Origin: Nostoc sp. LPT | Lineage (GTDB): Bacteria > Cyanobacteriota > Cyanobacteriia > Cyanobacteriales > Nostocaceae | DNA: 64,000 bases | Assembly (NCBI RefSeq): GCF_017115165.1 | Contig: NZ_JABXKF010000017.1 | Coordinates: 1-64,000 of the forward strand | Direction of reading: 5' to 3' | Shown here: positions 8,113 to 17,626 of the stretch, in pieces | Layout of the letters: each line of letters begins with the position of its first letter | How positions within the stretch are numbered: position 1 is the first letter of the stretch | The notes under the pieces: model-generated | What the model was told of the DNA's origin: nothing | Seen by the model: the letters and a program-made list of their open reading frames with translations, nothing else | Database searches by the model: none | Position numbers and translations under genes: made by a program

Positions 8113-8225
8113 ATGGGATGTGGGGCATGGGGCATGGTGCATCGGGCATTGGGGCAGAGGGAAAAAACTTACTGCAACTTCTCCCCAGTTCCCCAGTCCC
8201 CAATACCTAATCCCCAGTCCCCAAA
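8113..8225. repeat. GGGGCATGGG...CCCCAGTCCCC repeat with shared core
   Basis: G-rich runs (GGGGCATGGGGCATGG) face C-rich runs (CCCCAGTTCCCCAGTCCCC) around the core GAAAAAACTTACTGCAACTT. The same core recurs at 28819-28842, also between G-rich and C-rich arms. It fills the space between the convergent fasciclin and amylase genes and overlaps the last codons of the amylase gene, whose tail may be repeat-derived. Confidence 0.75.
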
Positions 8226-9673
8226 ATGCACCCACTCCGTGCGGGAACAGTCAATGACAACTGTTGAGTTTCTTCTTTACTATTCCACTCAACTTCAGCA
8301 TTACCATATAAAAGTTTGTTGGGTTGAGTACGCAAAGTAGCGACATCTGCATTCGCTGTTGCCGAACTTGTACCAGCATTGATAGCAATTATCAATTCTT
8401 CTGTCCCCAAAGTTCGCGCAAAGATATAAAGTTGTCCTTGAGCATGGAGGACTTGGTAATCACCTGTACGCAAGGCTGGGTATGTGTGGCGCAGGGCAAT
8501 TAATTGACGATGAGTATTGAAAATTTCTTGATTCCAATTACTCTCTAAAGGAAAACCACGGCGTGAGTCGGGATCTATTGCACCAGGTAAACCAACTTCA
8601 TCACCATAGTAGATGCTGGGGGCACCGGGAAAAGTGAGTAACAGTAGAGTTGACAATTCTATACTGCCTATATCACCGCCTGCAATAGTCATCAATCGCG
8701 CTGTATCGTGACTTGCAAGCAAATTGAGTTGAGTTAGCTGAATTTCCCAAGGATAAAGTTGCAGTACTTCTTGAATTTTGGTGGCGTACTCGGCGGCAAA
8801 TAAGGGTGGGTAGGGTTGATAGTCGCGGCTTTGGACTTGTTCTAAGACTACACGATCGCCTGCTGCAAAGGCAATTGTCGGCCCGGCAAATAAATAATTC
8901 ATCACGCCGTCAAATTGCGTCCCATCCAACCACTCACGTGAATCTCCCCAGACTTCGCCCACAATGTAAGCTTCGGGATTGACTGCTTTAACGCGATCGC
9001 GAAATTCCTGCCAAAAACCAGGAGTTTTAATTTCAAATGGTACATCTAATCGCCAACCATCAATGCCGAATTTAATCCAATATTCGGCAATTTCCATAAT
9101 GTATTCTCGTACTTCTGGATTATCGTGGTTAAATTCTGGCAAGGCACGATTTTCCGCCCAACCCACGTAGTTTGCAGGGAATTCACCATTGTAAGGTGAA
9201 AGCGGCCAGCCTTCTATTTTGAACCAATTTACCCAAGGCGAATGGGGGCCATTCTCTAAAACATCGTGGAAAAAGAAAAAACCACGGCTGGAATGGTTAA
9301 ATACCCCATCTAGAACAACTTTGATATTCCGTTGATGGGCTGCATCAAGCAATTCTTTAAAAGCCTCGTTGCCCCCTAGCATGGGGTCAACTAGATAATA
9401 ATCGTGGGTATGATAGCGATGATTGCTGGCGGATTGAAAAATGGGTGTGAAATAAATTGCATTAATTCCCAAATCCTGGATGTAGTCTAAACCCTCCATG
9501 ATGCCCCATAAATCACCGCCTTTATAACCCTGGAGTGTTGGTATAGAGTCCCAATCTTCCCAACGGGCTTCACGCAGCAGCCGTTTGCGCGGCTGTTTGC
9601 TTCTAGCAAAGCGGTCTGGGAAGATTTGGTAGAAAACAGCGTGCTTTACCCAGTCTGGTGTTTGAATTTGCAT
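8207..9673 (-). CDS. GH13 alpha-amylase family glycosidase
   Basis: From ATG 9673 the protein has 488 residues and begins MQIQTPDWVKHAVFYQIFPD, the usual start of this family; 12 further upstream codons look untranslated. The catalytic triad is in place: nucleophile D210 (DGWRLDVPFE), acid/base E240 (IVGEVWGDS) and D323 (LLASHDTARL). The DGVFNHSSRG motif is also present. There is no signal peptide, which suggests cytosolic maltodextrin or glycogen-derived substrates. Neopullulanase/cyclomaltodextrinase-type activity is possible, but the N-terminal domain of those enzymes is missing. Confidence 0.92.
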   Translation of the reverse strand: MQIQTPDWVKHAVFYQIFPDRFARSKQPRKRLLREARWEDWDSIPTLQGYKGGDLWGIMEGLDYIQDLGINAIYFTPIFQSASNHRYHTHDYYLVDPMLGGNEAFKELLDAAHQRNIKVVLDGVFNHSSRGFFFFHDVLENGPHSPWVNWFKIEGWPLSPYNGEFPANYVGWAENRALPEFNHDNPEVREYIMEIAEYWIKFGIDGWRLDVPFEIKTPGFWQEFRDRVKAVNPEAYIVGEVWGDSREWLDGTQFDGVMNYLFAGPTIAFAAGDRVVLEQVQSRDYQPYPPLFAAEYATKIQEVLQLYPWEIQLTQLNLLASHDTARLMTIAGGDIGSIELSTLLLLTFPGAPSIYYGDEVGLPGAIDPDSRRGFPLESNWNQEIFNTHRQLIALRHTYPALRTGDYQVLHAQGQLYIFARTLGTEELIIAINAGTSSATANADVATLRTQPNKLLYGNAEVEWNSKEETQQLSLTVPARSGCILGTGD

Positions 9674-10280
9674 GAATAACTTTTTGTACTTCAGAAGCGA
9701 TCGTTGCAAATATTAGCTTCTTTATGGCTCTTACTTATGATAGAGAATCTGTCATTTCTCAGTATTCATTAGTGATTTAGCCTTTTTCATGCTGTTTTAT
9801 ACGCAAATGTTATCAGTCTTAACTATTTTGACTACAATTTGTTTTAGTTTTTAACAGGTCAACTAGATAGACTCGTCACTGATTGCATTCTGACTCCTAA
9901 ATTCTTCTTTAAGAAATTTATTTATTACTTAATTATTCTTAATTTTATTTTCCTCACTTTGTCCGTAATGATTTAGGCAGACAATGGATTAGTTTAATAG
10001 CTTCATAAAAATTGCCTATTATCTCAGATTTCGGTAATTCTTAGATGCACCCGATCAAAGATGTCTCATGAACCACAGAAAATCACGATGATGGATACTT
10101 AATTCAAGAATATGAGTTATAAACTAGCAATTGTCTTAGGAATAACTTACCACTTCCTAAGCTTATTTGATGTTATCTATGAAAAAAATAGATAACTATA
10201 GTCTGCATTAATGTTAAAGCGACTTATCCTACTAAAATCACTACTTCGTTGACAGCAAATAAATTGAGTTTGAGGTAAAA
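9674..10280. other. intergenic, about 600 bp, no gene seen
   Basis: A very AT-rich spacer between the divergent amylase and subtilase genes. No frame with protein-like composition and no strong hairpin was noticed. It presumably holds both promoters. Confidence 0.5.
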
Positions 10281-12008
10281 ATGAGACACGAAAAACTTTC
10301 TCCTGGACTACTTTTGGCATATCAAGACTATCAAAATGAAGGAGATAAAGCTTTAGTTACACATAAGCGATCGCTTGGCATCATTGCCCACAAAAGCCCG
10401 GTCAAGCCCACTAAAAGCGTCGTTTTTATTTACTGCGACCCTGATGCAGACTTAAGTTATCTATCACAATATAATATTGAAGTCAATCAAAACTCTGGGA
10501 GTGTGCGGACAGCTTTCTTACCGATAGAGAGTTTAGATGTCTTATCTGAAGAAGATGTGATTCAGCGGATTAAGCCATCACGCAAACTTCATTTGCGGAT
10601 GGACAGTGCAATGAAAACAGTTAAACTGCCGGAGTTCCAGAATAAAACCGGACTGACTGGAAAAGGAGTAATCATCGGCATTATAGACAGTGGTATCGAT
10701 CCCAAACACCCCGCCTTTGCTGGACGAATTTTACACATTTGGGATCAAACATTGCCAGGCCCAGGAGTCACAGAGGGCGGCTATGGGGCTGAATTTACGG
10801 GAGCGCAACTGACAGTTTCTCAGGATACTGGTGGTCATGGTACTCACGTTGCGGGAATTGCTGCCGGTGCCGATGCTAGTTATAGTGGTGTCGCACCAGA
10901 AGCGGAATTAGTTGTCGTCAGGTCTGATTTACAGGATGCCCACATCGCAGATGGTGTGCGTTATATTTTCCGAGTTGCTAGGGAGTTGGGACGCCCAGCA
11001 GTGGTAAATCTCAGCTTGGGTGGACACGCTGATGCCCATGATGGTAGTGATTCCTTATCCAAAGTCATCGACGCCGAAACTGGCCCTGGAAGAATTGTTT
11101 GCTGTGCTGCGGGTAACGAAGGAAACGATAACATTCATGGACAAGCGACGATACCCAGTGGACGCACTCGTGGTATGCGGTTTAATGTTCCTTTGAATCA
11201 AGTAGGTATAGTTTGGTTAAACGCTTGGTATGCCAAAGACAGCGAATTGGAAGTATCTGTGCGGAGTCCTAACGGTTTTGTCACCCCCTTTCAAAAAATC
11301 ATTACTGAAGGTAATGCTGCCCAAGATTACCAATTACCAGATGCACGGGTGCAATTAGCGACACCAGCGCCAGACCAAGCCAACGGCGACCATAATTTCT
11401 TTGTGCAAATCCGGGGTATTGGCCCCTCACAAGTAATGGGAGGTGTTTGGCAGCTGCGAGTCCGCAACCCTTCTTCAACTGACACATGTTTAAATGTATG
11501 GACACTAGATGACAGTTCATCAGTGTTTTTCACAGGTAAAAGTGTGAAGGATGCGTTAAAAATTGGTTCGCCGGGAGCCGCCAGCAGTGCAATTACAGTT
11601 GCCGCCTATACTACTAAAACCAAATACACAGATATTGATAACCAAGTGCGAGAAATGGGCTTAGAATTGGATACTATTTCGGAATTCAGTAGTGAAGGGC
11701 CTCTACGCAATAATGGACAGAAGCCGGATGTAGCAGCACCAGGCGCAATGATCGTTTCGACACTTTCCGCCGATGCAAATTTTGACCGCTCATCGATGAT
11801 TAATTCCAAGTTTGTGGTTCAGGCTGGTACGAGTATGGCGACACCGTTTGTTAGTGGGTTAGTGGCACTGCTGTTGCAGCGAGATCCTAAACTTGATCCG
11901 GCTGCGGTGAAAGACTTGCTACGTAAAAATAGTGCCATTCCCGGAAAACCCGCAGGCACATTTGATGACAAATGGGGTTATGGAGTCATTAACGCAGCTA
12001 ATCTGTAA
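10281..12008 (+). CDS. S8 family subtilisin-like serine protease
   Basis: A 575-residue subtilase with all catalytic residues: D136 (IGIIDSGID), H186 (GGHGTHVAGIAAG), oxyanion N279 (CCAAGNEG) and S518 (AGTSMATPFVSG). Residues 1 to about 110 look like an I9-type propeptide, ending before LTGKGVIIGI. A domain of roughly 130 residues is inserted between N279 and S518 (about 290-420), as in CspA-like subtilases with a jelly-roll insert. No signal peptide is visible, so it may be cytosolic. The next gene encodes a propeptide-like protein. The caspase-STAND gene lies 1 kb further on. The substrate is unknown. Confidence 0.95.
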   Translation: MRHEKLSPGLLLAYQDYQNEGDKALVTHKRSLGIIAHKSPVKPTKSVVFIYCDPDADLSYLSQYNIEVNQNSGSVRTAFLPIESLDVLSEEDVIQRIKPSRKLHLRMDSAMKTVKLPEFQNKTGLTGKGVIIGIIDSGIDPKHPAFAGRILHIWDQTLPGPGVTEGGYGAEFTGAQLTVSQDTGGHGTHVAGIAAGADASYSGVAPEAELVVVRSDLQDAHIADGVRYIFRVARELGRPAVVNLSLGGHADAHDGSDSLSKVIDAETGPGRIVCCAAGNEGNDNIHGQATIPSGRTRGMRFNVPLNQVGIVWLNAWYAKDSELEVSVRSPNGFVTPFQKIITEGNAAQDYQLPDARVQLATPAPDQANGDHNFFVQIRGIGPSQVMGGVWQLRVRNPSSTDTCLNVWTLDDSSSVFFTGKSVKDALKIGSPGAASSAITVAAYTTKTKYTDIDNQVREMGLELDTISEFSSEGPLRNNGQKPDVAAPGAMIVSTLSADANFDRSSMINSKFVVQAGTSMATPFVSGLVALLLQRDPKLDPAAVKDLLRKNSAIPGKPAGTFDDKWGYGVINAANL

Positions 12009-12078
12009 TTAGACTGAGAAAGGTAGATATTATTTCTGCACAAGGGTAGGCGATAAAAACCTACAACTTTGATAGATT

Positions 12079-12103
12079 AGGGTAGGCAATTGTTGCCTGC
12101 CCT
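12079..12103. repeat. palindrome AGGGTAGGCAA/TTGCCTGCCCT
   Basis: The near-perfect palindrome lies between the subtilase stop and the ATG of the small downstream gene. The 12-mer AGGGTAGGCAAT recurs inverted at 12428-12439, just after that gene, so the small gene is bracketed by inverted copies. There is no T-run, so it is not a classical terminator. Confidence 0.6.
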
Positions 12104-12122
12104 ATTTACCAAGGAATTACTG

Positions 12123-12422
12123 ATGAATTATCATAAACTAGATGCCGCTCTTGCTACAGCGCTGAATGATGTTCAAAATTCAGAAGAACCGAATTTAGGG
12201 GTTTTCATCCATACTGAACCAGTTTTAAACTCTGCTGCAACTGCTGTTTTAGAAAGTTTAGGCGTTAATGGTGTTAGCAGTGGCAAAGATATTTTCACCG
12301 CAACACTTTCACCAAATGCCATTTCTCAGTTATCAGAGCAACCTTGGGTGATGAGTCTGAAGCGATCGCAGCAATTGCGTTTGGTTAATAGGAAGATAAA
12401 TACACCGAAGTTAGGTGTTTAA
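12123..12422 (+). CDS. small protein resembling a free-standing subtilase propeptide/I9 inhibitor
   Basis: From ATG 12123 the protein has 99 residues; a further 11 in-frame codons upstream overlap a palindrome. It reads LGVFIHTEPVLNSAATAVLE, then GKDIFTATLSPNAISQLSEQ, then PWVMSLKRSQQLRLV. This beta-alpha-beta, beta-alpha-beta order with a final basic strand parallels residues 45-106 of the upstream subtilase (KSVVFIYCDPDADLSYLS ... IQRIKPSRKLHLRM). I infer an I9-like fold acting as inhibitor or folding chaperone of the neighbouring protease. It has no signal peptide or catalytic motif. The match is structural pattern reading, not a search. Confidence 0.6.
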   Translation: MNYHKLDAALATALNDVQNSEEPNLGVFIHTEPVLNSAATAVLESLGVNGVSSGKDIFTATLSPNAISQLSEQPWVMSLKRSQQLRLVNRKINTPKLGV

Positions 12423-12465
12423 TGGGCATTGCCTACCCTTACAATGTGTAGATAATTTTTTGCTG

Positions 12466-12837
12466 TTACTGTGAATCCGGTTTTGGTTTTTCTGGAAACT
12501 TACACTTCACCTCAATTTCCAAATTACTTTCAGCAGAGCCTTCGGTAATGTAAGGAATACCTGCTTTGCCACCCAACTTAATGCCAAATTTAAGTTTTAC
12601 CTCCTCAATCTCAGCAGTATTGAAGTCTTTAAAAGCACTTAGAGCATAGATAGTATAAGAGCGAATCATTTGACGAGCTTGTTGCATCCGAGCGATCGCA
12701 TCTGTTCGTACATCTTTGTATTTTATGCCATCGTCGTCCTCCTCAATTTCCGAAGTTGTTTCAGTGGCTGTAACGTTAATCTCAATCTGCTCAATCTCTC
12801 TGTCTGCTTGGAAAAATAGTTGCTGCACTTCTGACAT
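12466..12837 (-). CDS. TRYPCO1-like (CU044_2847 family) protein
   Basis: A 123-residue protein with an N-terminal strand region, an acidic loop (SEIEEDDDG), a helix (RMQQARQMIRSYTIYAL) and a C-terminal block, EIEEVKLKFGIKLGGKAGIP, followed by SAESNLEIEVKCKF. That block matches the 'vEFGiKLs..aG.i.a..saeanf.v' signature I associate with trypsin-co-occurring domain 1. These domains occur with proteases and STAND NTPases in bacterial conflict systems and are thought to be adaptor or sensor parts. It is divergently transcribed from the caspase-STAND gene across a 147-bp gap. Confidence 0.65.
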   Translation of the reverse strand: MSEVQQLFFQADREIEQIEINVTATETTSEIEEDDDGIKYKDVRTDAIARMQQARQMIRSYTIYALSAFKDFNTAEIEEVKLKFGIKLGGKAGIPYITEGSAESNLEIEVKCKFPEKPKPDSQ

Positions 12838-12984
12838 AAGCCACCTCGATTAAAGTTTTGTAACGTATCTGAATAAATTTCAGCTTGCTTGCAGAAAACT
12901 AACAGATGGTATTGTTTCTAATAACACAGCCATTGATTGTGTCTGTCAAGATTATCCCGCATTTACCAAGCCAAGGTGTGTTAA

Positions 12985-15843
12985 ATGGCACGATATGCGC
13001 TTGTTATTGGCATCGCTGAGTATCTCAGCCCATCATTACCGCGTTTGTCGAAGACTACAAATGATGCTGAGGCTGTAGCGCAACTTCTAGAGCAATATGG
13101 TGATTTCCAGTCTGTGCAAAGACTACCACAGCGCTGGAATAAAGATAAAAACGGCTATGAAATGGCAGTGCAAAAAGTTACTGGCGCTCAACTGGGCCAA
13201 GATTTGAGAACTTTTTTACTAGAGCAAGCTGCTAATAATGAAGCACTAATTTATTTTAGCGGGCACGGTTTTACCATTTCCGACAATTTGGGACAACAAA
13301 AGGGATATTTAGCAAGTTCCGATTGTCAGATTGAATTTAAAGAAAACGAAAATGTTGAACAAAAATATGGCATTCCCTTGGATAGCCTTAACGACTTAAT
13401 TCGAGATTCGCAATTGAGTAGTTTAGTGATGCTCCTCGATTGCTGTCATAGCGGCTATTTCCTGGAAAGACAGTTAATAGAAAAAAGTCTTAACGCTTTC
13501 AGTTCGCAAAAGGATTATTACTTAATTACAGCTTGTCGTGGCTTTGAACGCGCCGGAGTGATTAAAAGTGAAGAATACAGCATTTTCACAGGTGCAGTTG
13601 TTAAGGGATTGGCGGCAGAAAATGCAAGTAGTAGTAGGCGAATTAGTGGCGATCGCTTGTTTGATTTTGTCAGCAATGAACTTAAAGGTTCTGTACAGGA
13701 GCCGATTCGCATGGGTTGGGGACGTTCGATTACCTTGGTGACTTATCCCAAATTAGATATTTTTACAAAAGAAAAAATTGCTTTCAATCAGGAAAATCCT
13801 TATCGGGGACTTTATGCTTTTGAATCAGAACAAGCGCAATATTTTCGTGGACGAGATGAAGCAGTTCGTACCCTAATTTCACGTTTAGCAGAGAGTCATT
13901 TTTTGGCTGTAATTGGCTATTCAGGTAGTGGTAAATCTTCCTTAGTAAAAGCAGGTTTGTTACCGCAACTGAAAGGCGATCGCCTTCCTGGAAGCAGTCA
14001 ATGGGAAATCGCATCTTTTACACTAGGAGAGCATCCTTTAGGTAAATTAGTTGATATTTTAGCTAGGCAACAGCAGCAAAATAAACCGCATCTATTATTT
14101 ATCGATCAATTTGAAGAAGTATTTACACTTTGTCAAGACGATGAGGAACGCAAAGCTTTTATCCGCTTAGTGGCACAGGAAGTAAAAAAAGGTGAGGGAG
14201 AAACGCGGATAATTTTGACAATTCGCGGTGATTTCTTAAATCGTTGTGCTGACTATTTAGAAATTATTACTCTCATCAATAGCATTCCTCCCACATCATT
14301 CATCGTCACACCAATGTCTTTTGCTGAGTTAGAAGAAGCAATTGAAAAACCAGCAAAATTACATGGGGTAACATTTGAGCGTGGTTTAGTTTCGCAAATT
14401 TCCGCCGATGTCGTCAACCGTCCGGGTGCATTACCCATACTGCAATATGCACTCAAAGAGTTGTGGCGAGTTTGCATTGAAGAACCTGAATCGCCACAAC
14501 CGCTTTTAACTCGCAAAGGCTATGAAGAAATTGGTGGAGTTAAAGGAGCTTTAGACAAACGAGCGACAATTTTGTATCAAAGTTTAACAACTATAGATCA
14601 AGCCTTTGCGCGTTGCTTGTTTATGGAATTGGTGCAATTAGGTGAAGCTGGAGAAGTGACGCGGCGGCGTGCTAGCTGGGATAGATTAGAAGCAATTTCA
14701 GATTCTCCACAACAATTACAACGGGTTGTAGGATTACTGGCAGGTTCTCAACAACGCTTAATTATCACTGATGAAAAGACGGTTGAAGTTGCTCATGAAG
14801 CACTTTTATCTGAGTGGAAATTATTAAATAGTTGGATTGCTGAAAATCTGGAGAATATTCGTCTCAGTCGTTCTTTAGAGGAAGATTGCCAGGAATGGCT
14901 ACAAAGATTTAATAAATCGGATGAAGCACTATTGACAGGTGCAAAATTGGCTGTAATTTCTGAATGGGTGAATAAGATTCAGCCAAGACTTACGCCATTA
15001 GAAGCGGAATTTTTGCATAAGAGTTTGGAGAGACGCGATCGCCAAAATCAGGCAGAATTAGAGCAAGCAAAAAAACTCCAACAGCAAGCAGAAGCTAAAG
15101 CCAAAGCTGAATCACAAAGAACTAGATTTGCGATCGCCTCTGCAATACTTGTAGCTGTATGTGGGGGATTAGGAGCGTTTACATGGCAACTTAGCACAAA
15201 GAATAGCCTGAAGGATAAGATCGCTTCTGGAGCATTAATTGCATTGCCTGAGCTACTTTTGCAAACAGGGAATCAGCTTGATGCGATGATAGCAAGTGTA
15301 CAAGTACTTAAGCAATTTCAAGATTTAGGTATAGACAATGCTGACGCACTTAATCGACTTAAATTAGTGATAGATAAAGTGCAAGAACACAATCGTTTAC
15401 AGGGACATACAGATTCTGTTAGCAGTGTAAGTGTTAGTCCTACAGAAAACCTTATTGTTTCTGCAAGTCATGATAAAACTGTGAAACTTTGGAAGTTGGA
15501 TGGCACTCTGGTTAAAACTATGAGACATGATGCTGCTGTCTATAGTGTAAGTTTTAGTCCTGATGGTCAGTATATAGTCTCTGGTGGTGGTGATAAAAAA
15601 GTTAAGCTTTGGAAGAAAGATGGTACTTTCCTTGATTCGGTTACAGAAGACAAAAATATCTATTTTGTCAATTTTAGTCCTGACAATAAAATAATTTCTA
15701 CTAGGGAAGATGGCACTGTAAGGTTATGGGAATATAATTCATCAAAAATTATACAAAAACCTTATAAAACCATACTAGGAAATGGCAAAGACGGAGTTTG
15801 GAGTGCAGAATTTAGTCATAATAATAGTAGTAAAATTCATTAA
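12985..15843 (+). CDS. caspase-like peptidase / STAND NTPase / WD40 protein, WD40 array cut short
   Basis: This 952-residue protein joins several domains. Residues 1-255 are a caspase-like peptidase with catalytic H94 (YFSGHGF) and C154 (LLDCCHSGYF). Residues 270-690 form a STAND/nSTAND1-type NTPase with Walker A at 311-319 (GYSGSGKSS) and Walker B at 370-378 (LLFIDQFEE). A coiled, alanine/lysine-rich segment leads to a hydrophobic helix (about 712-732). About three WD40 repeats follow from residue 805 (LQGHTDSVSSVSVSP, DKTVKLW). Related proteins usually carry many WD40 repeats, so the C-terminus is truncated. Sensing by WD40, NTP-driven assembly and caspase activation is the family model. 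Confidence 0.92.
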   Translation: MARYALVIGIAEYLSPSLPRLSKTTNDAEAVAQLLEQYGDFQSVQRLPQRWNKDKNGYEMAVQKVTGAQLGQDLRTFLLEQAANNEALIYFSGHGFTISDNLGQQKGYLASSDCQIEFKENENVEQKYGIPLDSLNDLIRDSQLSSLVMLLDCCHSGYFLERQLIEKSLNAFSSQKDYYLITACRGFERAGVIKSEEYSIFTGAVVKGLAAENASSSRRISGDRLFDFVSNELKGSVQEPIRMGWGRSITLVTYPKLDIFTKEKIAFNQENPYRGLYAFESEQAQYFRGRDEAVRTLISRLAESHFLAVIGYSGSGKSSLVKAGLLPQLKGDRLPGSSQWEIASFTLGEHPLGKLVDILARQQQQNKPHLLFIDQFEEVFTLCQDDEERKAFIRLVAQEVKKGEGETRIILTIRGDFLNRCADYLEIITLINSIPPTSFIVTPMSFAELEEAIEKPAKLHGVTFERGLVSQISADVVNRPGALPILQYALKELWRVCIEEPESPQPLLTRKGYEEIGGVKGALDKRATILYQSLTTIDQAFARCLFMELVQLGEAGEVTRRRASWDRLEAISDSPQQLQRVVGLLAGSQQRLIITDEKTVEVAHEALLSEWKLLNSWIAENLENIRLSRSLEEDCQEWLQRFNKSDEALLTGAKLAVISEWVNKIQPRLTPLEAEFLHKSLERRDRQNQAELEQAKKLQQQAEAKAKAESQRTRFAIASAILVAVCGGLGAFTWQLSTKNSLKDKIASGALIALPELLLQTGNQLDAMIASVQVLKQFQDLGIDNADALNRLKLVIDKVQEHNRLQGHTDSVSSVSVSPTENLIVSASHDKTVKLWKLDGTLVKTMRHDAAVYSVSFSPDGQYIVSGGGDKKVKLWKKDGTFLDSVTEDKNIYFVNFSPDNKIISTREDGTVRLWEYNSSKIIQKPYKTILGNGKDGVWSAEFSHNNSSKIH

Positions 15844-15951: not shown

Positions 15952-16075
15952 AGACCTCTTGCAAAAGTCAAAAAATTAAAAATGTCATTCTGAGCGGAAC
16001 GCAGTGACAGAAGAATCTCACTACTCTGTTTAGCTCCGCTCGATATGACAATTTAAGCATTTATGCAAGAGGTCT
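15952..16075. mobile_element. MITE-like element with AGACCTCTTGCA inverted ends
   Basis: A 124-bp element bounded by perfect 12-bp terminal inverted repeats, AGACCTCTTGCA and TGCAAGAGGTCT. Inside, TGTCATTCTGAGCGGA near the left faces TCCGCTCGATATGACA-like sequence on the right, so most of it folds into one long hairpin. It has no coding capacity. It lies between the truncated STAND gene and glgC. The TGTCATTCTGAGCGGA core is one I associate with widespread bacterial palindromic repeats. Confidence 0.8.
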
Positions 16076-16336
16076 GATCTCTTTAAACTTATGTTTTTTT
16101 ACCATAACCTGAAATTTAGTTATGTCTCTCAGCATGAGTGTAGTCTAGCGATCGCACCCCCTTCCTCATCCCAATTAATACAAACGTTCTATTTTTTCTC
16201 TTGATCGCCCCCACTATCCATCATCAGTAGGATTCTGTAAAATTCATCCCAAAGAATCAGATGATCCCCCTTACCTGTGGTGGCAGACAGTCCTAAACTT
16301 AAGATGAGAGTTGAACAGGCAGTCGGGAGAAATTTT

Positions 16337-17626
16337 GTGAAAAAAGTATTATCAATCATTCTTGGTGGTGGCGCGGGTACTCGACTTTACCCACTAACCA
16401 AACTCCGCGCTAAACCAGCAGTACCAGTAGCGGGGAAGTACCGCCTAATCGATATCCCTGTTAGTAACTGCATAAATTCCGAAATATTCAAAATCTATGT
16501 CCTGACACAATTCAACTCAGCTTCCTTGAATCGTCATATCGCCCGTACCTACAACTTTACTGGCTTCAATGAAGGGTTTGTGGAAGTGCTAGCCGCACAA
16601 CAAACACCAGAAAACCCTAACTGGTTCCAAGGTACAGCAGATGCTGTACGTCAGTATCTGTGGTTAATGGAAGAATGGGATGTAGAAGAATATCTAATTC
16701 TCTCAGGCGATCACCTCTACCGCATGGATTATCGCCAGTTTATCCAGCGCCATAGAGAAACCGGGGCTGATATTACTCTCTCAGTCATCCCCATTGATGA
16801 GCGTCGCGCCTCAGATTTTGGCTTGATGAAAATTGACGATTCTGGTAGAGTAATCGATTTTAGCGAAAAACCTAAAGGTGAAGCGTTACTCCAAATGCAA
16901 GTTGATACAAGTGTACTGGGATTATCAAAAGAACAAGCCCAGCAACAGCCTTACATCGCTTCAATGGGGATTTATGTCTTTAAAAAAGATGTTTTGTTCA
17001 AGTTGTTGAGAGAAGGTATAGAAAGGACTGATTTCGGCAAAGAAATTATTCCTGATGCCTCTAAAGATTACAACGTTCAAGCTTACCTTTTTGATGACTA
17101 CTGGGAAGATATTGGAACAATCGAAGCATTTTATCATGCCAATTTAGCCCTAACTCAGCAGCCTCAGCCACCTTTTAGTTTCTACGATGAAGAAGCACCA
17201 ATTTATACCCGTGCTCGCTACTTACCTCCAAGTAAACTTTTAGATTGCCAGGTGACAGAATCAATTATCGGCGAAGGTTGTATTTTGAAAAATTGCCGCA
17301 TTCAACATTCAGTGTTGGGAGTGCGATCGCGAATTGAATCTGGCTGCGTCATCGAAGAGTCCCTACTCATGGGTGCAGATTTTTATCAAGCTTCTGTAGA
17401 ACGCCAATCTAATGTAGAAAAAGGCGACACTCCTGTAGGTATTGGTACTGACTCGATTATTCGCGGTGCGATCATTGATAAAAACGCCAGTATCGGCCAC
17501 GATGTTAAAATCATCAATAAAGATAACGTGCAAGAAGCTGACCGAGAAAGTCAAGGTTTCTACATCCGTAGTGGCATCGTTGTCGTGCTGAAAAATGCTG
17601 TAATTGCCGATGGAACCATCATTTAA
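16337..17626 (+). CDS. glgC: glucose-1-phosphate adenylyltransferase (ADP-glucose pyrophosphorylase)
   Basis: Starting at GTG 16337 ([20 protein letters not shown]) the protein is 429 residues, the length I recall for the Anabaena enzyme. Twenty further in-frame codons from 16277 are probably leader. It makes ADP-glucose from ATP and glucose-1-phosphate, the committed step of glycogen synthesis. Motifs present are [19 protein letters not shown], the sugar-binding [10 protein letters not shown] and the C-terminal left-handed beta-helix with lysines for 3-phosphoglycerate activation ([12 protein letters not shown]). It functions as a tetramer in the cytosol. Confidence 0.97.

Follow-up and report, generated by a model that had tools for sequence, protein, structure and literature searches.

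A head-to-head Trypco1 and caspase–nSTAND1–WD40 gene pair in Nostoc, with a constant catalytic half and a variable sensor half

Small proteins of the Trypco1 family were named for trypsin-like proteases in the MoxR–vWA–VMAP (VMAP-ternary) systems of multicellular bacteria, where the caspase is reported alongside an alpha/beta hydrolase (Kaur et al. 2020, PMC7159879). In the 64,000-nucleotide stretch of Nostoc sp. LPT analyzed here (the window, C37:1-64000, from a genome of 8.6 Mb), a member of the same family again lies as a small gene beside a protease in a multicellular bacterium, but the protease is a different one: Trypco1 stands head-to-head with a gene combining a caspase, an nSTAND1 nucleoside triphosphatase (NTPase), a predicted membrane helix, and WD40 repeats, hereafter the receptor gene. 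No trypsin-like protease, MoxR, vWA, or VMAP was found among the ten flanking genes scanned, the direct neighbors of Trypco1 being the caspase–nSTAND1 gene and a gene for a 99-residue protein, which is neither a Trypco1–trypsin nor a VMAP-ternary arrangement.

A STAND NTPase with a WD40 sensor coupled to a caspase is the design of the Apaf-1 apoptosome. Apaf-1-type coupling is also stated in PMC7159879; here, the caspase is instead fused in one chain with a bacterial nSTAND1, in what is predicted to be a membrane receptor. The EACC1-caspase system (Kaur et al. 2020, PMC7159879) likewise combines a small constant gene, a caspase with a variable C-terminal part, and membrane association, but its membrane helix lies in the small protein, whereas the partner here is a divergent Trypco1 gene whose product has none, the variation is sensor exchange at one site, and the window receptor scored 91 bits against the EACC1-associated caspase model NF047832, below the cut-off of 140. 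The fungal HNWD genes het-d and het-e (PMC12222747) share the order effector, NTPase, and WD40 sensor, a highly polymorphic sensor, and many inactive alleles; however, they join a HET/TIR-like effector to NACHT where a caspase and nSTAND1 were found here, they vary by near-identical internal repeats where whole propellers appear to be replaced here, and a membrane helix, predicted here, is unmentioned in the accessible text. Hypervariable sensors on caspase or STAND proteins of multicellular bacteria are also known from diversity-generating retroelement (DGR) systems, which vary orthocaspase-domain proteins (PMC7517822) and lie near Trypco and caspase-like genes at some loci (PMC10907252); these systems change lectin-type domains by a retroelement, unlike the replacement of a whole WD40 sensor part considered here, although no retroelement search was made at the site. 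In the canu caspase–nuclease system (PMC12799240), a partner family pairs with trypsin-like proteases or with caspases depending on the setting, but this partner is an MBL-type nuclease, of which none was seen among the genes scanned beside the receptor.

Catalogs of cyanobacterial caspase homologues go back to at least 2010 (PMC2853523), orthocaspases with WD40 or membrane helices being listed in PMC2853523 and PMC8283722; caspase and DnaJ neighbors of cyanobacterial WD40 genes (PMC5587647) and variable WD40 propellers of TRADD-N proteins, ascribed to recombination (PMC8195603), are also on record. No head-to-head Trypco1–caspase–nSTAND1 pair is described in the accessible literature on Trypco1 (PMC7159879, PMC10907252), and a search of titles and abstract beginnings, mostly without subscription journals or supplements, returned nothing on WD40 sensor exchange in bacterial caspase receptors.

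The Trypco1–receptor pair

A sequence-only reading of this locus had proposed a conflict or programmed-death switch made of a subtilase, a propeptide-like protein, a TRYPCO1-like protein, and a caspase–STAND–WD40 protein. The four open reading frames (ORFs) are indeed present where it had placed them, within 5.6 kb, and profile scans agree with its domain calls for the subtilase, Trypco1, and the caspase–STAND–WD40 protein. The core of the locus is nevertheless a two-gene module, formed by Trypco1 and the divergent receptor gene:

12466..12837, minus strand: Trypco1 (PF19493 / CU044_2847), 123 residues, head-to-head partner of the receptor gene
12838..12984: divergent intergenic region of 147 bp, between Trypco1 and the receptor gene
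12985..15843, plus strand: receptor gene (caspase, nSTAND1, basic linker, predicted membrane helix, WD40), 952 residues, C-terminus truncated
12985..13719, plus strand: caspase (Peptidase_C14) domain, residues about 1-245, with H94 and C154
13798..14907, plus strand: nSTAND1 NTPase, residues 272-641, Walker A and B present
15127..15183, plus strand: predicted membrane helix, residues 715-733, at the constant/variable boundary, Kyte–Doolittle 2.07
15184..15840, plus strand: variable sensor part, an incomplete WD40 propeller
15835..15836: deletion junction, 1,269 bp of the homologous locus L066 absent (alignment to L066)

In hidden Markov model searches, the 12466-12837 protein scored 65.6 bits against Trypco1 PF19493 (cut-off 24.6) and 88.2 bits against NCBIfam CU044_2847_fam (cut-off 23), so that the TRYPCO1 label is confirmed by both curated models. 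The receptor matched the caspase family PF00656 (E 3.8e-15), nSTAND1 PF20703 (E 2.7e-109), and WD40 in Pfam, and every residue and domain earlier read in it was found: H94 and C154, the His–Cys dyad of active caspases of the orthocaspase type, are invariant in 37 of 37 aligned proteins, the window's included, and the NTPase carries a Walker A motif (GYSGSGKS) and a Walker B region (LLFIDQFEE). Pfam matches and Walker motifs together give the STAND/NLR-like order of effector, STAND NTPase, and superstructure-forming sensor. The intergenic region holds promoter-like TTGACA (12949-12944) and TGTTAT (12926-12921) motifs on the minus strand, 17 bp apart and partly conserved in an alignment of 19 loci.

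Absent from the sequence-only reading were the truncation of the WD40 part, described below, and the predicted membrane helix. In the receptor clade defined below, 28 of the 28 proteins examined (those of at least 900 residues) have a segment with a Kyte–Doolittle value of at least 1.75 between residues 694 and 775, the highest hydropathy of the first 600 residues being at most 1.28 in the 12 values given; elsewhere in the family tree, a comparable segment was seen in 20 of 57 proteins. Because basic residues are more numerous before the helix than after it (mean 5.4 vs. 2.9), the orientation suggested is one with the N-terminus inside, hence a predicted topology with caspase and nSTAND1 in the cytoplasm and WD40 outside. 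Trypco1 itself reached a highest hydropathy of 0.45-1.34 in 20 proteins, under the 1.6 used for a membrane helix; its structure model (predicted local distance difference test [pLDDT] 62, low confidence) has two strands, a long helix, and two long strands. Among solved structures, nothing convincing was found by sequence for Trypco1 or the 99-residue protein, nor by fold at E<=0.001 for Trypco1, whose model is weak.

The pairing extends well beyond the window. A caspase gene lies head-to-head with Trypco1 in 45 of 60 loci of the family sample (44 within 500 bp) and in 70 of 80 named loci (69 within 500 bp), two sets that overlap by 12 identical Trypco1 ends; the named loci are the best 80 of 215, whereas the family set draws on 66 Trypco1 places (59 retrieved together with their flanks, the window taken directly, and six weak ones omitted), with one further locus added. 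The other loci of both sets include some with trypsin-type neighbors (L122, L123) or a CHAT-domain ORF (L106), loci at contig ends, and remnants. In 37 chosen Trypco1-adjacent caspase proteins, Pfam detected the caspase in 37, nSTAND1 in 35, and WD40 in 18. Trypco1 and caspase distances correlate (Mantel r 0.93 for 97 pairs, with 0.19 the highest value in 2000 shuffles), and pairs inside one genome diverge in step (e.g., caspase 0.32, Trypco1 0.34). That the Trypco1 relative and the caspase–STAND protein belong together, as had been supposed, is thus upheld by head-to-head counts and correlation alike.

Trypco1 (E<=0.001) was found in 47 of 99 family genomes, and in a phylum-wide sample of 292 genomes, it was matched in 33 and the 99-residue protein in 10. 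Head-to-head Trypco1–caspase pairs occur on the four plasmid records examined out of six (two of Acaryochloris, one each of Gloeothece and Nostoc), and no Trypco1 relative was found on viral contigs. The window's genome has three further Trypco1 genes elsewhere: at L075 and L097, Trypco1 is head-to-head with a caspase gene that is longer or different, and at L122, it adjoins trypsin.

In six of 13 caspase–nSTAND1 genes that lack Trypco1, the head-to-head position is taken by a different small gene, of 154-194 residues; the six are mutually homologous, are without a Pfam match (six scanned) or an NCBIfam match (three scanned), and may represent a second partner family. They are at:

L231, 3852-4313
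L232, 5695-6276
L235, 4059-4535
L236, 3715-4194
L237, 4792-5271
L240, 4423-4887

Divergence of the two receptor halves

Within the Nostoc group, mean pairwise identity over 11 loci was 0.88 for the subtilase, 0.89 for Trypco1, the caspase, and nSTAND1 alike, and 0.93 for glgC, with 0.92 for the amylase (9 loci) and 0.85 for the 99-residue protein (10 loci), whereas the sensor after residue 720 reached a mean of 0.38 (10 full-length loci). The truncated window row was kept in these tables except for this last figure, and the broken receptors of L127, L129, L130, L134, and L137 were omitted from them and from the sensor tree. Pairwise identity of the subtilase correlates with that of Trypco1 (r 0.96) far better than with that of the sensor (0.17); the receptor sensor does not follow ancestry. 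Among pairs with a constant part of at least 0.9, the sensor fell below 0.5 in 23 of 29, against 0 of 12 in a second Trypco1-paired WD40 receptor group. A sensor at 0.38 with the rest of the gene at 0.89 is polymorphism of the HNWD type, here seen between species and not within one. Several of the compared rows are metagenome assemblies, but the constant/variable pattern holds among those not so marked (L126, L128, L132, L133, L136), with constant and sensor identities of 0.94 and 0.35 for L126–L128, 0.94 and 0.37 for L126–L132, and 0.96 and 0.66 for L128–L132.

The sensor tree (25 rows, near-duplicates L142, L148, and L152, and also L158 and L162, omitted) groups the window with L066, L131, G033, G012, and Symplocastrum (100/100), apart from L125/L128/L132/L133/L136 and from L065/L126, and this despite 96% identity between L125 and the window in the constant part. 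Sensor classes cross species and families, and the branch lengths indicate that the class shared by Symplocastrum and Nostoc goes back to an old split of sensor classes, not to a recent transfer.

Silent sites tell the same story. In the Planktothrix-type pair L147/L149, a constant part 0.97 identical is joined to sensors at 0.47, with a synonymous divergence (dS) of 0.128 and 0.80, respectively; in L144/L150, dS is 0.204 and 1.34. Conversely, L144 and L148 (Tychonema bourrellyi) differ more in the constant part (identity 0.92, dS 0.253) than in the sensor (identity 0.99, dS 0.012, i.e., 20-fold lower). Nucleotide identity shifts abruptly at about codons 650-800, beside or after the membrane helix. 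Because silent sites diverge along with the protein, the sensor has been replaced by recombination and has not just undergone fast protein change, and sensors appear to move as cassettes. They are moreover under constraint, since the ratio of nonsynonymous to synonymous divergence (dN/dS) is 0.26-0.55 in 9 of 10 pairs.

Some further observations concern the sensor end. The receptor C-terminus of the Oscillatoria pair L141/L142 has a dN/dS of 1.15, for 0.17 in the constant part; in this one pair, diversifying selection on the sensor is possible. Extra WD40 ORFs lie just after the receptor gene in L065 (4328-5404) and L138 (3048-4334), 82% and 37% identical to the respective fused sensors, and could be displaced or spare sensor cassettes. 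A second, pentapeptide-type Trypco1-paired group (Group C: L187, L188, L190, L193, L194, L204, L110, L097, L197; 721-1165 residues) also combines a constant caspase–nSTAND1 part with very unequal C-termini, with pentapeptide repeats in 7 of 9 and none detected in L097 and L197; the pattern is there a positional drop in identity with unequal repeat content, as the short reference row precludes sensor identities.

The chromosomal site and its other genes

Around the Trypco1–receptor pair, the site holds the following features:

8207..9709, minus strand: alpha-amylase family gene, left syntenic flank
10281..12008, plus strand: subtilase (S8), 575 residues, triad D136/H186/S518, belonging to an adjoining independent pair
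12123..12422, plus strand: stand-alone propeptide-like protein of 99 residues, probably akin to the pro-region of the subtilase itself
15952..16075: 26-nt imperfect inverted repeat, resembling a miniature inverted-repeat transposable element (MITE), between the receptor gene and glgC
16277..17626, plus strand: presumed glgC-like gene (named from its protein sequence), right syntenic flank

Other Nostoc genomes keep the order amylase, subtilase, 99-residue gene, Trypco1/receptor, glgC, AAA33, and dnaJ; in Symplocastrum (L146), it runs fasciclin, amylase, subtilase, 99-residue gene, and Trypco1/receptor, and Planktothrix (L149) and the related assembly L147 have amylase, Trypco1/receptor, and glgC without the subtilase. 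In a receptor tree of 94 rows, the nearest named rows to the window's are from Nostoc, and the window falls in a 33-row clade (support 99) that holds every row with any such flank except L143, whose branch is long and unsure. As the flank-sharing rows form one clade in conserved gene order, the module appears to be a resident that most Nostocaceae have lost, and not a recent arrival. Judging by their genus names, we take the named members of this clade to be filamentous cyanobacteria; Symplocastrum belongs to Oscillatoriales and Nostoc to Nostocales in the NCBI taxonomy. Insertion of the pair beside the subtilase as a mobile element was considered and dropped, the same order being present in other families.

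The subtilase matches PF00082 (E 7.8e-46) and has the triad residues earlier assigned to it. Its neighbor of 99 residues went unmatched in Pfam and PADLOC at E 1 or better, and its only two NCBIfam matches scored well under the respective cut-offs, but profile–profile comparison with the N-terminal pro-region of the adjacent subtilase gave a probability of 93.8% (P 1.8e-7, 84 columns), from shallow alignments with few effective sequences, which makes the label "propeptide-like" a fair one; its AlphaFold model (pLDDT 48) was too poor to be used. Given this probable relationship, its likeliest role is restraint of the subtilase, probably as a stand-alone propeptide. The two genes form a conserved pair, separate from Trypco1–receptor: of the 99 family genomes, 68 carry the 99-residue gene, 67 the subtilase (E<=1e-60), and 66 both; the two lie no more than 1 kb apart in 47 genomes and no more than 5 kb apart in 53. 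Trypco1 adjoins the 99-residue gene in only 5 of those 68 genomes (the window's, G006, G059, G033, and, as a remnant, G090), and the 99-residue gene lies within 1 kb in 16 of the 80 named Trypco1 loci (in L128 via a Trypco1 fragment). Where Trypco1 is absent from the site, the 99-residue gene is followed by glgC in 14 of 20 regions, which were chosen by hand.

The receptor gene of the window is itself damaged. Intact Nostoc-group homologues at the site have 1129-1191 residues (n=10), and the window ORF was shortened to 952 by the 1,269-bp deletion at 15835/15836, which shows no exact microhomology at its join and removed the end of the propeller, leaving 232 aligned residues after residue 720, against about 424 in L066. 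With part of the propeller deleted, the window receptor is probably unable to sense. Across 20 Nostoc-group loci at the site, some of them metagenome assemblies in which an isolated frameshift may reflect an error, the receptor is a single long ORF in 10, it is broken or shortened beside a full-length Trypco1 ORF in 6 (the window, L127, L129, L130, L134, L137), and only a remnant is left in 4, with Trypco1 matches beginning at residue 47-66 (L071, L145, L169, L181). The arms of the inverted repeat at 15952-16075 stand 72 nt apart; since L066 aligns through it, this MITE-like repeat is probably not the cause of the deletion. Additional Trypco1 fragments adjoin the 99-residue gene in L065 (9926-10123) and L128 (11731-11937), as signs of site rearrangement.

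Possible roles of the receptor

From the sequence evidence, we lean, with some confidence, toward a membrane-bound, NLR-like caspase receptor for immunity or allorecognition, of which Trypco1 would be the constant partner. By analogy with the STAND and caspase families, the WD40 propeller would sense a variable ligand outside the cytoplasmic membrane, upon which the nSTAND1 NTPase would oligomerize with ATP and bring the caspase domains together, so that the assembled caspases could cut their targets and kill or arrest the cell. Trypco1 would be a constant cytoplasmic partner of the protease–NTPase half, as restraint, adaptor, or substrate; its direct relation to the protease is likely, given that it goes with trypsin in one place and with a caspase in another, like the gated nucleases of PMC12799240. 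Ligands that change over time, whether they belong to phages or to other strains, would favor sensor swapping, and the cost of misfiring would account for the many broken copies.

Several points weigh against this receptor model. Its topology is a prediction from hydropathy and charge. The shuffles behind the Trypco1–caspase correlation leave shared ancestry in place, and 13 of 14 regions hand-chosen for a caspase match without a Trypco1 match beside it hold a caspase–nSTAND1 gene, none showing Trypco1, which is therefore not obligatory for such genes. As for the cassettes, L144, L151, and L152 are metagenome assemblies, so that the two pairs with near-identical sensors could partly be chimeric, and a search of five genomes, L125's own excluded, for a close donor of the L125 sensor gave none, the top-scoring match being 36% identical and no match exceeding 47%. 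Diversifying selection on residues finds no support in the sensor dN/dS, save possibly in L141/L142, and a fixed position between metabolic genes is unusual for a phage-defense module.

Two explanations would remove the need for a receptor pair with meaningful sensor variation. The single proteolytic cascade of the sequence-only reading, in which subtilase, its inhibitor, Trypco1, and caspase–STAND would form one four-gene switch, can point to the packing of all four within 5.6 kb and to their joint presence, whole or broken, in 15 of 140 loci read around Trypco1, the window not counted (14 of the Nostoc group, with the caspase gene broken in four, and Symplocastrum L146, which has the amylase gene too). 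Since Symplocastrum belongs to another order, this linkage is old; yet what makes the four genes neighbors is that each pair sits in the same old amylase–glgC interval. The subtilase and the 99-residue gene are found in two thirds of the 99 genomes with Trypco1 rarely beside them, 18 of the 33 receptor-clade rows have no 99-residue gene in the stretch read, and Planktothrix keeps the module between amylase and glgC without the subtilase. The four genes thus rarely co-occur, which is the first refuting condition that the sequence-only reading had itself named, and on co-occurrence we reject the switch as very improbable: membership of the subtilase and the propeptide-like protein in it is not supported, while the conflict or death role proposed along with it stays plausible. 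Slightly less credible still is a relaxed constraint under which the WD40 part merely decays or drifts fast, without meaning. Such decay would fit the broken or remnant state of half of the 20 Nostoc-group loci and the truncation of the window copy, but the sensors of intact genes stay open under purifying selection, synonymous divergence increases along with that of the protein, constant parts that differ more can carry nearly identical sensors, and the second WD40 group lacks such sensor variation.

Within the receptor model, what the sensor reads may be either foreign or own. In phage defense, it would recognize phage structures, its swaps would track phage evolution, and death of the infected cell would protect the filament. 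Caspase homologues, NLR-like ones included, act in bacterial antiphage systems (PMC12799240), and related Trypco1–caspase modules occur on plasmids and elsewhere in genomes; however, the clade is resident between amylase and glgC genes across families with no recognized defense island, the sensor side is predicted to lie outside the cytoplasm, and PADLOC models, applied to the four proteins as single models and not as system rules, gave only general matches (subtilase, caspase, partial IetS). We hold this role to be plausible, though at less than even odds. Allorecognition, in which the sensor would read variants of a self or neighbor periplasmic protein, as fungal het-d/het-e do with HET-C, and unmatched contact would lead to caspase-dependent death, seems a lesser possibility. 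It accords with polymorphism that crosses species, a fixed site, a predicted outward sensor, and frequent null alleles, as in het-d/het-e with their polymorphic WD40 sensors and many inactive alleles (PMC12222747), but both the ligand and contact killing of such a type in these cyanobacteria are putative.

Filaments of filamentous cyanobacteria share a periplasm. In this regard, a broader proposition may be put forward tentatively, with about the same reserve as for phage defense: filamentous cyanobacteria would keep, at an ancient site between glycogen-metabolism genes, an outward, cassette-swapped, apoptosome-like WD40 receptor whose sensor classes predate the split of NCBI orders while its caspase, NTPase switch, and Trypco1 stay constant. 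Such a receptor would be the bacterial equivalent of the fungal het genes and would serve the filament in self-recognition or immunity. To our knowledge, the triggers of sensor-bearing cyanobacterial caspase homologues are not known. Trypco1 now gains a second and very common protease partner, the caspase, and a constant death part with an exchangeable sensor at a fixed site offers a natural allele series for finding ligand and function, which would link bacterial caspases to the logic of the polymorphic NLR genes of fungi and plants.

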